A DNA stretch of 33,178 nt, taken from Opitutia bacterium. Its GTDB lineage: Bacteria > Verrucomicrobiota > Verrucomicrobiia > Opitutales > Opitutaceae. The DNA lies in NCBI GenBank assembly GCA_025360615.1, contig JANYBX010000357.1:1-33178 (forward strand), in the 5' to 3' direction. This document shows positions 3,113 to 21,788 of the stretch, piece after piece. The notes beneath the pieces were generated by a model. It searched no databases, was not told where the DNA came from, and saw only the letters and a program-made list of their open reading frames with translations. Position numbers and translations under genes: made by a program. Each line of letters begins with the position of its first letter. Within the stretch, counting starts at the first letter, position 1.

Positions 3113-5455
3113 TCACCAGAATTTATAAGTCACCGAAAAGCGCACGTTCGTCGGCAGTCCGGGCACCTGCACCAGCGCGCTGCGCGAGGCGAAGATGTAT
3201 TTTTTGTTGAGGAGATTATCGACGTTGAGCTGATAGGTGATCGCCTTCGTCGCGTAGCTCAGGCTGAGGTCGAGGAGCGTGCGAGCGGGCAGATAGCCGT
3301 AGAAAACCTGGCTGCCGGAGTTGTCGTTGATCGAGCGCTTGCCGAGGTAGCTGGTGCCGAGACTCGCGGACAAACCCTTGAACGTCGCGTCCGTGAACTT
3401 GTAGCGCGCCCACAGCGCCATGGTCTGTTCGGCGACGTTATTAACCGGGATCGTCTTGTGCACCTGGCCGTCGCCGGGCTGCACGATCTGGTTCCACGGC
3501 GAGGCGAGCTCGATGTGGGCTTTGAAATGCGCGAACGAGCCGATGAGATCCCAATTCTTGTCCACCGAGAACGTGAAGTCGCCGTCGAAGCCGCGCGATG
3601 TCTGGCCGCCGACGACGACGACGGACGGCGGATTCGTCTGCGGGAAGGCCGGGACGGTGTTGTTGAACTGCGAGACTTCGAAGTAGGCCGCGTTGAACGT
3701 GAGTCGGCCGCCGAGCCACGTGGTCTTCACGCCGGTTTCCTTTTGCTGGCCTTCGGAGGGCGGCAGCAATCCACCGACGCCCGCGGGCGTGGTGCCAAAG
3801 CCGTTGAACGCGAAATTTTTCGAGCTGCCGTAGAACACCGAGATGTTCGGGAGTGGCTTCACGAGGAGGCCGTATTGCACGAGGTTTTTGTAGGCGACCG
3901 AATTGGGAAACACGTTGCTATCCGCCGCCGCGCCGGCCACCGCGGTGCCCGCATTCACGTTGGGCGAGCCGGCCTGGATGTAGTTGTTCTGCAGGCGGGA
4001 GCTCTCATAGCGGCTGCGCGAAACACCGACGTTCGCGATCACGCGGTTGCTGAAAAAATTCGCCGTCTCGAGGGCGAAGAGCTTCGCGAAGTTTTGCGTG
4101 ATGTGGTTAAACGTGACTGGCGGCTGGCTGAATGCGACGCTCACCACACCCGGGAATTGCGGGTTCAACGGATCGATCTGGCTGCTCGACGCCGCGCTGT
4201 TGCCGCCGCTGCTGTAGGTCTTCGTGTCCTGCGGATAATCGACGAGCACGCCGCCGACGAGGAGCTTGTGGCTGGCCGGGCCGGTGCTGAAACTGAAGAC
4301 GTAGTCGTGCTGCAGTTCGCGACGCGGCTGGTAGTCGCCGTTGATCGCGGTGGTAGCGCGGTTGTATTTCGTGCCCGGCGTGTAGCTGGCGGGAATCTGG
4401 TAGCCCGGGACGGAGACGTTCACGCCGTTGACGACCTGCGTGGTGTTGACCGTGCCGAGGATGGACTCCACGCGGCGCTGCGTGTCCTTCGAATCAAAGG
4501 CCGCGAACCGGATCGCGACCCAGTCGGCCGGACGCGTGGTGAACTGGCCCCACAGCCGATAATACGAGTCGGTGCGCCAGTTGTTCGGGCGGTCTTCGCC
4601 ATCGAAATTCGTATTGTAGGGGACGTTGACCACCGTGTTCGTGCGGCCGTCGAGCGGGAGGCCGTTATAGGAGGAGTAGTGGCTGTTGAAGGCTTCGAAT
4701 TTCAGCCACACCTGCGTGTCCTTGCTGAAATCATAGCTTAGCATCGGCAGGATCGCCGTGCGTTTTTCATAGGTGTGGTCGAAGTAGCCTTTGGAGTCCT
4801 GGCCGGAGAGGAGGAAACGATAGGCAAACTTCTTGTCGGCCGTGATCGGGCCGCCGATGTCGAGGTCGGCGCGGTTCGCATCCCAGCGGCCGACTTGCAG
4901 CGTGAGCGTGCCCACGTTGTAGGAGGTCGGGTTCTTGGAAACCTTGTTGATCACGCCGCCGACGGTGTTCGCCTGATTCGCGATGAAGATGGCCGCGGGG
5001 CCCTTGATGATCTCGACGTGGTCGACGATGTTCAGATCGGTATTCTTGTCCGTCTGCGTGCGAAAGCCGTCGATGAAATCGCCTTCGCCGACGAAACCGC
5101 GAATCATGTAGCGGTCAACCGACCACGAGATGGTTCCGGTCTGCGCACCGCCCACGTAGTTGAGCGACTTCGCCATGATGGTCGGGCTCGCGCTGTCGAG
5201 GAAGAGCTTGTTCAGGACGACCACGGATTGCGCGAGGTCGCCGAGATCGACGCCGATGCGCGTCGTGCTCAACGCCTGCTTGCCGATGAAGCTGGTATCC
5301 TTTTCCGAGGAGACTTTGAACTCGGGCAGCTTGGTCGCTTCTTCGTTCGCGGCGGAAGCGGTGGTATTGGTGGGCGCGGACTGCGCGCGGCCGAGTGAAA
5401 CGCAGCCGGCGGCTAGCAAGGCGGACAGGAGAATTCGATAACGGTGGTGGTGCAT
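3113..5455 (-). CDS. TonB-dependent siderophore-type outer-membrane receptor without STN domain
   Basis: This receptor of 780 residues is a paralogue of the neighbour at 302-2902. Its plug nearly repeats the neighbour's (YMIRGFVGEGDFIDGF, VEIIKGPAAIFIANQANTVGG), but it has no STN domain: the signal peptide (MHHHRYRILLSALLAAG, cleavage near GRA-QSAP) leads straight to the region LPEFKVSSEKDTSFIGKQ. I chose the ATG at 5455 because it gives a standard signal peptide; the frame stays open to 5539, where upstream Mets would give an unusual N-terminus. No good ribosome site is seen at either. The C-terminus ends YKFW, one Trp after the usual terminal Phe used for outer-membrane assembly, which is unusual. 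A strong terminator follows. Role: uptake of iron chelates or a related ligand, inferred from the family. Confidence 0.92.
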   Translation of the reverse strand: MHHHRYRILLSALLAAGCVSLGRAQSAPTNTTASAANEEATKLPEFKVSSEKDTSFIGKQALSTTRIGVDLGDLAQSVVVLNKLFLDSASPTIMAKSLNYVGGAQTGTISWSVDRYMIRGFVGEGDFIDGFRTQTDKNTDLNIVDHVEIIKGPAAIFIANQANTVGGVINKVSKNPTSYNVGTLTLQVGRWDANRADLDIGGPITADKKFAYRFLLSGQDSKGYFDHTYEKRTAILPMLSYDFSKDTQVWLKFEAFNSHYSSYNGLPLDGRTNTVVNVPYNTNFDGEDRPNNWRTDSYYRLWGQFTTRPADWVAIRFAAFDSKDTQRRVESILGTVNTTQVVNGVNVSVPGYQIPASYTPGTKYNRATTAINGDYQPRRELQHDYVFSFSTGPASHKLLVGGVLVDYPQDTKTYSSGGNSAASSSQIDPLNPQFPGVVSVAFSQPPVTFNHITQNFAKLFALETANFFSNRVIANVGVSRSRYESSRLQNNYIQAGSPNVNAGTAVAGAAADSNVFPNSVAYKNLVQYGLLVKPLPNISVFYGSSKNFAFNGFGTTPAGVGGLLPPSEGQQKETGVKTTWLGGRLTFNAAYFEVSQFNNTVPAFPQTNPPSVVVVGGQTSRGFDGDFTFSVDKNWDLIGSFAHFKAHIELASPWNQIVQPGDGQVHKTIPVNNVAEQTMALWARYKFTDATFKGLSASLGTSYLGKRSINDNSGSQVFYGYLPARTLLDLSLSYATKAITYQLNVDNLLNKKYIFASRSALVQVPGLPTNVRFSVTYKFW

Positions 5456-5560: not shown

Positions 5561-5622
5561 ACGCTCTAAGGGAACTTTTTCGTTATTTTTCCCGCACCGG
5601 CAATGGATCGAATTGGAGGCGG

Positions 5623-5644
5623 GGTGCCCCCCAATGCTGTCCCA
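5623..5644 (+). repeat. Left terminal inverted repeat of the IS4-family element
   Basis: The 22 bases match the reverse complement of 6925-6946 without mismatch. The left flank reads GGAGGCGG, part of a dispersed repeat. Confidence 0.88.
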
Positions 5645-5751
5645 CTTAGCGAGGTCGACAAAAACACAAGGGACATTCGAGGAGGGTTTTGTGTCGTTGC
5701 CGAGCTGCTCACGATTTGAGCAGCGAACGGAGTTTTTCGGGTCTGAGCCGG

Positions 5752-6924
5752 ATGAACATCGGCCAGACCGTCTTCAGCCAAGTGATGGCGCGCATTCCTC
5801 ATTGGGAGTTTCAGCGTGCTTACAGCTCGTGCGATGTGCCGTCCCCGAGGAGCGATGCCCTCTCGCCGTGGGATCATTTTCTGACGCTGAGCTTCGCGCA
5901 GATGACCTTTCGCGAGAGCCTGCGCGACATCGAAGCGTGCCTCCAAGCGCAGGCCGGCCTGGCGTATCACATGGGCTTTCGCGCCAAGATCACCCGCAGC
6001 GCCTTGGCGCGTGCCAACGAGCAGCGCGATTGGCGACCGTGGGAGCATTTGGCGCGCAAACTCCTGCCCAAGGTCCGGGGGCTTTATGGCGACGAACCCA
6101 ACGCGCTCGATCTGGACGTGCCCGTCATCGCGGTGGACTCCACCTTGATCGATCTGAGTTTCGCGCTTTGCCCTTGGGCCAACTGGACTGGCACCGACGC
6201 GGCGGTAAAATTGCACGCGGCCCTGGACCTGCGCGGCCCGATTCCCGCCTTTGTCAACATTACGCCCGCCGCTTCCGGCGATGTCTGCTGGTTGGACGAG
6301 CTGCCGATCGAGCCCGGTGCGTTCTATATTATGGATCGGGGCTATATTGACTTTAAGCGCCTGCGTCGCATCGCCGAGGCGGGCGCTTTCTTTGTCATTC
6401 GGGACCGGCCCGACGTGCGTTACTACGTCGCCGCCTCCCGGCCGGTGGATCGCTCCACCAACCTGCGCTCCGACCAGTCGATCCGCCTCAATGGGACCGA
6501 CGCCCCGAAGCACTGGCCCGGCCTGCTGCGTCGCGTCAGCCTCTACGACTTCAAGCACTCCCGCCGTCTCGCTTTCTGGACCAATCAGTGGCAGGTCAGC
6601 GCCGCGATCGTGGCCGAACTCTACCGCCACCGCTGGCAGATCGAGCTGTTCTTTCGCTGGCTCAAACATGGCCTGCGCATCCGCACTTTTTACGGCACCA
6701 CGGCCAACGCGGTGCGCCTGCAATTGTGGGCTTCGCTCTGCACCTACTTCGCCATGGCCATCACCCGCAAACAACTCGGCATCACTGCAAATCTGACGAC
6801 GTTTGTCCAAGTCCTGTCGCTTCATGCGATTTCAAAAAATCCTGTGGCGGAGCTGTTTGCAGAATCCACTACAAGCGCGTCGTCCTCATCAGCAACGCAA
6901 CAGCTATTACTCAAAGACTTATAA
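5752..6924 (+). CDS. IS4-family transposase with DUF4372-type N-terminus
   Basis: This 390-residue enzyme would cut and join the IS ends. The N-terminal domain has family hallmarks (FAQMTFRESLRDIEACL, ARANEQRDW). The RNase H-like core carries D129 (AVDST), D195 (MDRGY) and E298 within the IS4 YREK signature: Y291, R294, E298, K305 in YRHRWQIELFFRWLK. All three acidic catalytic residues are present and there is no frameshift, so it looks functional. The start MNIGQTVFSQ at 5752 matches the usual family start; the frame is open further upstream to 5689 but those residues do not resemble the family. The stop TAA (6922-6924) touches the right terminal repeat. Confidence 0.95.
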   Translation: MNIGQTVFSQVMARIPHWEFQRAYSSCDVPSPRSDALSPWDHFLTLSFAQMTFRESLRDIEACLQAQAGLAYHMGFRAKITRSALARANEQRDWRPWEHLARKLLPKVRGLYGDEPNALDLDVPVIAVDSTLIDLSFALCPWANWTGTDAAVKLHAALDLRGPIPAFVNITPAASGDVCWLDELPIEPGAFYIMDRGYIDFKRLRRIAEAGAFFVIRDRPDVRYYVAASRPVDRSTNLRSDQSIRLNGTDAPKHWPGLLRRVSLYDFKHSRRLAFWTNQWQVSAAIVAELYRHRWQIELFFRWLKHGLRIRTFYGTTANAVRLQLWASLCTYFAMAITRKQLGITANLTTFVQVLSLHAISKNPVAELFAESTTSASSSSATQQLLLKDL

Positions 6925-6946
6925 TGGGACAGCATTGGGGGGCACC
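6925..6946 (-). repeat. Right terminal inverted repeat of the IS4-family element
   Basis: Perfect 22-bp inverse of 5623-5644. It begins immediately after the transposase stop codon. The right flank CACCCCGC continues into the palindromic repeat element. Confidence 0.88.
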
Positions 6947-8040
6947 CACCCCGCATTCGCGTCGCTCACAAGATCACGTCGCCGCGGGGTGAGGGCACCC
7001 CGCCTCCAAAAACACCGCCAGCCATCGGCATCTCCGCCGTCGCCGAACTCGTCGATCTCGTCCGCGAACGCCGCGCGCACGATCCGAAATTCCTCATGAT
7101 GGAGCCGGAAGACCTCCGCGCCCCTGACACCGATCTCGTCGACCCCGCCGCGTTTCCCGCCGAACTCCCGCTCGCCAACTCCGCCCTCCCGCTCAACTAC
7201 GCCTACAAGCCCGGCCAGGCCGACGATGGCGTCACGCTCGACGTCAGCGTGCGCGAAGCCGAGACGCTCACGCCCGCCGCGCTCGACTGGGCCGTGCCCG
7301 GCCACCTCGAAGCCAAGGTCGAACACTACCTGAAATCCGTGCCGAAGGAGCTGCGCCGCCTCTTCGTGCCGCTCGCCGAAACCGCCAAAAGCGTCGCCGC
7401 CCAAGTCGCCGCGCGCGACCGGCTCACCGACCGGCGCGAGACCTTGCTCGAGGCGCTGGCCGCGCAGTTGCGCGAGCGTTTCCGCGTCGCCGTCGAGCCC
7501 GCGCTCTGGGCCGACAAACCACTGCCGGATCATCTCCGGGTGCGCATCCGCGTGATCGACGACGCGCACCGCGAACTCTGCGCGAGCCGCGAATTCTCCG
7601 AGATTCGCAGCGCGCTCGGCACCCGCCAGCGCGAAGCCAGCGCCGCCGTGGCCCGCGTGGAACCCGAAGCGTGGCGCCGCGCCCGCGCCCAATGGGAGAA
7701 ACCGCCGCAGACCGCGTGGACTTTCGGCGATATCCCCGAGCGCGTGCTCGTGAGCGAGCAAGCCGGCGTGCCCGCGCACGCGTTTCCCGCGCTGGTGGCG
7801 GAGAAGGAAGGCATCTCGCTGCGTCTCGCCAAAACGCCCGAGGAAGCCGCCACCGCCACGCGCGCCGGCCTCGCGCTGTTGTTGGAGCGGCAGCTCAGCC
7901 ACGAGCTCACCTGGCTCGAGCGCGATCTCCGCGGCCTGCGCGAACTCGGAGCGTTGACCGCCACGCTCGCGCCGCTGGCGGAGCTGCAAGCGCAAGCCTT
8001 CGCCTCGATCCGCCGCTGGGTGTGCGACGCCCAACGGATC

Positions 8041-8136
8041 GAGGTAGGGCGCGTTATCCCTAACGCGCCGGTGGCGCTCGGCTCTTCCGACAGTCCCGAA
8101 TCGCAGCGGCGGGTTAGGGATAATCCGCCCTACCTC
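8041..8136. repeat. Double-hairpin palindromic repeat (copy A), in frame inside hrpA
   Basis: The ends are GAGGTAGGGC and its exact complement GCCCTACCTC. Inside are two hairpins: GGCGCGTT-ATCCCT-AACGCGCC (8048-8069) and GGCGGGTT-AGGGAT-AATCCGCC (8108-8129). The loops ATCCCT and AGGGAT are complementary. The element is 96 bases, so it adds 32 codons without breaking the hrpA frame. A second copy is at 21700-21788 between genes. The layout (two inverted REP-like hairpins around a variable spacer) resembles REPINs. Confidence 0.88.
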
Positions 8137-8470
8137 ACCGCCACTGCCTTCACCACCGCGCTCGAAAAATCCAAAACCGATCTCCGCGGCATCGTCCCGC
8201 GTCTCACCGATCTCCTCCGCGAAATCCTCGGCCTGCGTCAGGATTTGCTCGTGTATCCGAAGCCTTACTCCGGCCAGGGCCCCGATCTCGCCGCGCTCCT
8301 GCCTCCGGATTTTCTGCGCACGACGCCCTACGGCCAGCTCGCGCATTTCCCCCGCTATCTGAAAGCGATGAAACTCCGCGCCGACCGCGCCCGGCAAAAT
8401 CCCGCGAAAGACGCCGAGCGCGCCGCGCAACTCGCGCCCTACCTAGCCGCCGCCAAACGCTCCTCTCCTC

Positions 8471-8496
8471 TTGGAGGCGGGGTGCCCCCACCCCGC
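8471..8496. repeat. Hairpin repeat of the GGAGGCGGGGTG family, in frame inside hrpA
   Basis: TTGGAGGCGGGGTG followed by CCCC and CACCCCGC gives a perfect 8-bp stem (8477-8484 with 8489-8496) and 4-nt loop. It equals the arm of the element split by the IS (right arm 6984-7009). Downstream, CTCCCTCCAA near 8525 looks like a decayed inverse end, so the full unit may be about 65 bases. In hrpA it encodes a low-complexity linker (GGGVPPP). Confidence 0.75.
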
Positions 8497-8890
8497 AAAG
8501 ACGCTGCAGCCACTGCCGGCACGCTCCCTCCAAAAAACACCGACGCCACTGCCGCATCAGCCGCCACCCCCTTCCGCTGGCTCGTCGAGGAATTCCGCGT
8601 GAGCCTCTTCGCGCAGGAACTCGGCACCGCCGAGCCGGTGTCCACCGTGAAACTCGACCGCGCCCTCGCCGAGTTGCACTCCGCTCCGCGCACCCACGCC
8701 ACGCCAGCGACGAAAGCCGTTCCCAAGAGCGACCCCGCCGCCGCCAAACTTCCGGTCAACGTGATGCCTCTCACCTCGGAAAAAAAATCCACCCCGCTCA
8801 AAAACCTCAGCGCGCTCGACAAGCTGTTTTCGCGCTGAGATTCACGGCTCTCAGGAGCATTTTCGCCCGTGAAGAACGGATTCGTTCCGC

Positions 8891-21699: not shown

Positions 21700-21788
21700 G
21701 TAGGGCGCGTTATCCCTAACGCGCCGGTTGGTCTCAATTTTTCCGATGAGCCGGGTCGCAGCGGCGGGTTAAGGATAACCCGCCCTAC
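21700..21788. repeat. Double-hairpin palindromic repeat (copy B), between convergent genes
   Basis: The first 29 bases (GTAGGGCGCGTTATCCCTAA onward) are identical to copy A (8044 onward), and the 3' part (TCGCAGCGGCGGGTTA, then CCGCCCTAC) matches with two changes; only the spacer differs. Both internal hairpins are intact. It starts 2 bases past one stop codon and includes the stop codon of the convergent membrane-protein gene, so it may serve as a two-way terminator. Confidence 0.88.

Follow-up and report, generated by a model that had tools for sequence, protein, structure and literature searches.

The analysed stretch, hereafter the window, is a 33,178-nt contig (JANYBX010000357.1) from the assembly of an Opitutia bacterium (GCA_025360615.1). 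It carries part of the helicase gene hrpA, an insertion sequence (IS) and short palindromes of two families, REP1 and REP2 (Table 1). HrpA is defined by a DEAH helicase and DUF3418 in one protein; here the window encodes DUF3418, and the N-terminal part is found on contig C157, at whose end it breaks off inside a REP2 palindrome. The gene is broken across the two contigs exactly at this element (window 6984-7007; C157 26554-26611, locus L079), and the joining of IS and TonB-receptor genes to hrpA at this REP2 copy may reflect misassembly or REP2-REP2 recombination.

Table 1. Coordinates of the palindromic elements and associated genes in the window.
Feature	Position	Strand	Remarks
REPIN (REP1 doublet), 90 bp	8044..8133	+	Translated as VGRVIPNAPVALGSSDSPESQRRVRDNPPY within HrpA
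REP1	8044..8069	+	GTAG-GGCGCGTTA-TCCC-TAACGCGCC
Inverted REP1 partner	8108..8133	-	GTAG-GGCGGATTA-TCCC-TAACCCGCC on minus strand
Second REPIN copy, 89 bp	21700..21788	+	Intergenic, convergent gene pair
hrpA C-terminal part (DUF3418)	7096..8838	+	PF11898, E = 6e-100; TIGR01967; N-terminal part on contig C157
REP2 (GGAG-GCGGGGTG-CCCT-CACCCCGC)	6984..7007	-	In frame, different hrpA linker; other REPIN half at C157 end
REP2 with decayed partner	8473..8496	+	In frame, third hrpA linker (GGGVPPPRKD)
IS4-family insertion sequence	5630..6939	+	Splits a REP2 copy into GGGTGCCC (5622-5629) and GGGCACCC (6940-6947)

A sequence-only reading of the window had placed at 8041-8136 a 96-bp palindromic element with inverted ends, read in frame inside hrpA without a stop codon. 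Both claims were confirmed. The arms (8041-8073 and 8104-8136) are 88% complementary across 33 nt, with 30 nt separating them, and the minimum free energy of the corresponding RNA is -65.7 kcal/mol (z = -8.7; no shuffled sequence was equally good). The GTAG and CTAC heads common to all copies set the true ends at 8044 and 8133, giving a 90-bp element whose plus strand consists of a REP, a variable spacer and an inverted REP (GTAG-GGCGCGTTA-TCCC-TAACGCGCC ... GGCGGGTTA-GGGA-TAATCCGCC-CTAC). The reading had also described two hairpins with complementary loops; each arm does form its own hairpin, with loops TCCC and GGGA, but the predicted lowest-energy fold is a single long hairpin pairing both arms. 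Only one of the three frames on each strand is open across the REPIN; it corresponds to the GTA|GGG phase ('VGRVIPN...RRVRDNPPY'), and the frame of the hrpA part stays open through the element. The second copy, which the reading had called intergenic, indeed lies between two convergent genes, and the TAG of its GTAG head forms the stop codon (21785-21787) of the minus-strand ORF ending at 21785. A search of the window against Rfam gave no match.

The element is abundant in its genome. A whole-genome search with the pattern GTAGGGCGNNTTATCCNTAANNCGCC, allowing up to two mismatches, yielded 162 REP1 motif matches (88 + 74) on many contigs, versus none in the reversed control. A DNA query recovered at least about 42 distinct full-length copies when the best 40 of 146 candidates were scored. 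In the fetched regions of the genome we resolved at least 55 REPIN doublets (78-96 bp) and 29 single REPs, the doublet number being a lower bound because it was counted in those regions. As is characteristic of REPINs, the 55 doublets consist of two REPs inverted around a less conserved spacer, a conserved GTAG-type tetranucleotide heads each short palindrome, and the majority of the doublets lie outside any open coding frame. Convergent gene pairs flank 14 doublets; none was scored as divergent. Rickettsia palindromic elements are defined by sequence, with a CGTC-type head; the head here is GTAG, and the likeness to them is one of behaviour alone.

The sequence-only reading had taken the hrpA segment for an insertion, and alignment with relatives bears this out. 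Against same-genus HrpA proteins the alignment ends at residue 315-316 and restarts at 347. Between the two blocks lie 3-6 nt, and the net difference is 87 bp (for example, in genome G009). The AlphaFold model of the HrpA part (37 aligned sequences) has a mean pLDDT of 80, and the PDB entry that it matches best is 9gft, a disome-bound E. coli HrpA. Residues 319-343, inside the insert, fall below 50 between adjoining helices above 90, and the insert is therefore a predicted disordered loop. In the arms common to four species, the counts over the three codon positions are 17/24/32, compared with 252/183/541 in the flanks; these counts, from a crude alignment of low power, suggest weak purifying constraint on the insert, its arms being less third-position-biased than the flanks. 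The two REP2 sites of hrpA correspond to short, variable sequence in relatives. Together with the REP1 linker, these two in-frame sites mean that hrpA carries REP-derived segments at three linkers.

A RAYT-type transposase gene, which the sequence-only reading had proposed looking for, was found on contig C288, flanked by REP1. It is a 176-aa ORF (4431-4961) between mreB and mreC, most of which is enclosed by two inverted REP1 motifs about 500 bp apart. The ORF passes the NF047646 REP_Tyr_transpos model narrowly (80.8 bits; cutoff 80) and scores 20.3 against Pfam Y1_Tnp, under the cutoff of 23; a search with PF01797 by itself did not find it. Its sole PDB match is TnpAREP (4er8, E = 2e-4). Orthologues with at least 60% identity occur in genomes G001, G004 (with an internal stop), G007 and G015, and the order mreB-RAYT-mreC with inverted REP1 on both sides is seen in five genomes of two genera, in line with a RAYT as a single gene that stays at one locus over time. 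The five RAYT-bearing genomes are exactly those with at least 37 REP1 motifs among the 54 searched (Fisher, 3e-7). Four other RAYT-like genes of the genome were considered as the REP1 mobiliser and rejected: they lack flanking REP1, and one of them (on C306) is flanked by REP2.

We are highly confident that the hrpA segment is a REPIN of two inverted GTAG REPs, probably mobilised by the C288 RAYT and tolerated in an exposed HrpA linker as a disordered addition of 30 residues, at a linker that is permissive across Opitutaceae lineages. The REPIN, a non-autonomous miniature transposon, would be moved by the RAYT encoded between mreB and mreC and would have entered the solvent-exposed linker between two helices of the HrpA C-terminal domain. 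The insertion would be tolerated because it sits in the sole open codon phase and its length is divisible by three, so that the protein would simply gain a disordered 30-residue linker. In other Opitutaceae lineages, other GTAG palindromes would have entered the same linker, been replaced there or decayed. Mobility is inferred indirectly, from the empty sites and the co-occurrence of the RAYT with high copy number, and HrpA carrying the insert presumably stays active. The proposal of the sequence-only reading, a mobile repeat able to make protein linkers, is thus supported by the motif number, the empty sites and the REP1-flanked RAYT.

We compared 80 HrpA-related loci with named records and built a tree of 70 HrpAs without the linker. 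In many of the 80, the same linker holds an insert that frequently begins with GTAGGG and ends with CCC TAC CT. GTAG palindromes of several stem families were found at the linker in 15 of the 70 HrpAs, a figure based on labels set by eye, so that some rows labelled 'other' may be palindromes too. The inserts of our genome and of L249, L250 and L251 all belong to the REP1 family. L038 and L267 have stems of the GGACG type, the stem of L299 is GGCGGGCCC-GCT-GGGCCCGCC, and L307 and L274 carry another stem family; the insert of G015 (L036), which begins at a distance of 5 nt and in a different frame, represents yet another. Relics were seen in G004, L293 and L290. On the HrpA tree the 15 REP-bearing rows need 8 gains or losses, at least 5 of them forced by well-supported branches, and shuffled labels need 13.9 on average.

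On balance, we favour the interpretation that the linker between the two HrpA helices acts as a permissive dock into which REPINs of several stem families were inserted, or exchanged, in frame and repeatedly across Opitutaceae; mobile palindromes would then be a main source of linker evolution in HrpA, and likewise at an SNF2-type helicase, MurC and the BioD-BioF junction. A possible, less probable alternative is that the linker palindromes of the relatives go back to one ancient REPIN insertion that descended vertically, while its stems changed through divergence or through conversion by the resident REP family. This would fit the identical position and end (CCCTAC|CT) in several species, the single family common to our genome, L249, L250 and L251, and the resemblance of the G032 linker element to the resident variant of that genome (11 motifs), but it has to accommodate the 8 changes on the tree with their forced branches, the different stem families of the close relatives L249 and L274, and the shifted start and frame of the G015 copy. 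Some of the recurrence could be due to vertical descent combined with divergence of the stems. Among near-identical HrpAs, a short palindrome in this linker distinguishes L254, L255 and L298 from L260 and L262, and this difference is a recent gain or loss.

Copy length differs between genic and other copies. Non-genic copies are most commonly 89 bp (24 of 47), or 88 bp, and the eight copies scored as genic measure 90 bp (seven) or 96 bp (one). Lengths divisible by three were thus found in 8/8 genic copies versus 11/47 others (p = 6e-5), a rule that follows partly from how an in-frame copy is defined and in which the eight include two 90-bp copies on C376 (2768 and 3077) lying in an open frame without a Pfam match, whose genic status we do not count as shown. 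With genic copies restricted to the six that have a Pfam-supported host, the numbers are 6/6 versus 13/49. Beyond HrpA, in-frame REPIN copies occur in MurC, PabB, an SNF2-type helicase, the BioD-BioF junction and an ABC solute-binding protein, and single REPs occur in a lipoyl acyltransferase, a CysJ-like flavoprotein, a glycosyltransferase and an RHS protein; the host families come from Pfam, and the exact enzyme names are our reading of those families. For those hosts that were compared with relatives, the matching place in the relatives held a variable-length linker or no insert. Inside genes, only copies with a length divisible by three and the GTA codon phase were seen. The codon-neutral insertion claimed by the sequence-only reading therefore applies to the hrpA copy (90 bp, GTA phase) but not in general, as the typical 89-bp copy shifts the frame. 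Given this frame shift, an insertion into a gene would mostly do harm, and we infer that the genic copies are those that passed, most other gene insertions having been purged by selection.

It is improbable that the genic copies instead represent a special REPIN sublineage fit for translation, that is, a 90-bp coding subfamily spreading between genes. Their mean distance is slightly below that of random sets (0.183 versus 0.225; p = 0.05), and the hrpA copy has the two open-frame copies on C376 as its nearest neighbours; however, the other genic copies mostly have intergenic copies of 88-89 bp nearest to them, and taken together the 90-bp copies lie no closer than random (p = 0.19). The genic copies thus form no clear lineage of their own. 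A chance fold, or a protein segment that is simply GC-rich, can be dismissed with near certainty as an account of the hrpA palindrome, since, frequent as inverted repeats are in high-GC genes, the fold z-score, the copy number against an empty reversed control and the same-genus homologues lacking the segment refute it.

REPINs and RAYTs are established systems (PMC3116915, PMC8049555). Like the RAYT-mobilised REPINs and GTAG REPs already described (Bertels and Rainey 2011, PMC3116915; Di Nocera 2013, PMC3733652), the elements here have a stem-loop headed by GTAG, inverted doublets, a RAYT flanked by its REPs and many copies in the gaps of convergent gene pairs. Those accounts treat REPs as mainly extragenic, whereas here a sizeable share is in frame in conserved genes. 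For the related bacterium Opitutus terrae, Di Nocera (2013) reports REP dimers read in frame as 20-30 residues in uvrA, a ligase and RNA helicases, and some genes hit twice by intragenic GTAG REPs. The kind of insertion has therefore been known since 2013, RNA helicases included. Three points go beyond the cited part of the O. terrae account and are new detail: a filter on length and frame, the RAYT at mreB-mreC, and a HrpA linker that recurs as a landing place across the family. The O. terrae HrpA copy may itself already be among the reported cases. Rickettsia palindromic elements are likewise inserted in frame in many unrelated proteins, but they differ from the REPIN here in sequence and phylum, and PMC3733652 assigns the Rickettsia intragenic repeats to the CGTC class, which has no known dedicated transposase. 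With its empty sites, cognate RAYT and structural model, the hrpA copy offers a clean case of a RAYT-associated repeat as raw material for protein linkers and ties the REPIN literature to the 'protein-coding palindromes' of Rickettsia. With so many states of the HrpA linker to compare, one can ask whether inserts of this sort are retained or ride along as neutral passengers.

Several further observations were made at REP-bearing sites. At the BioD-BioF junction (L003:1038-1127 on C376, and L200), a REPIN links the two reading frames, with no in-frame ATG, GTG or TTG near the BioF start; a REP2-like palindrome occupies the same junction in G013, and a gene fusion via REP insertion is possible. 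In the SNF2-type helicase, a REPIN lies at the same place in two species (L191, on C160 of G004, and C510). The IS element of the window matches NF033592 (234 bits) and has 15-bp terminal repeats bordered by the REP2 stem halves GGGTGCCC and GGGCACCC. IS insertion into REPs has been described (Tobes and Pareja 2006, cited in PMC3733652); our IS4-type element likewise sits inside REP2, but unlike those cases it is present in one copy in the assembly. A possible third palindrome family, with repeated GRGRPRSQ peptides, surrounds a RAYT-like gene at L033 (C280) and recurs at the end of a triosephosphate-isomerase-like ORF there.
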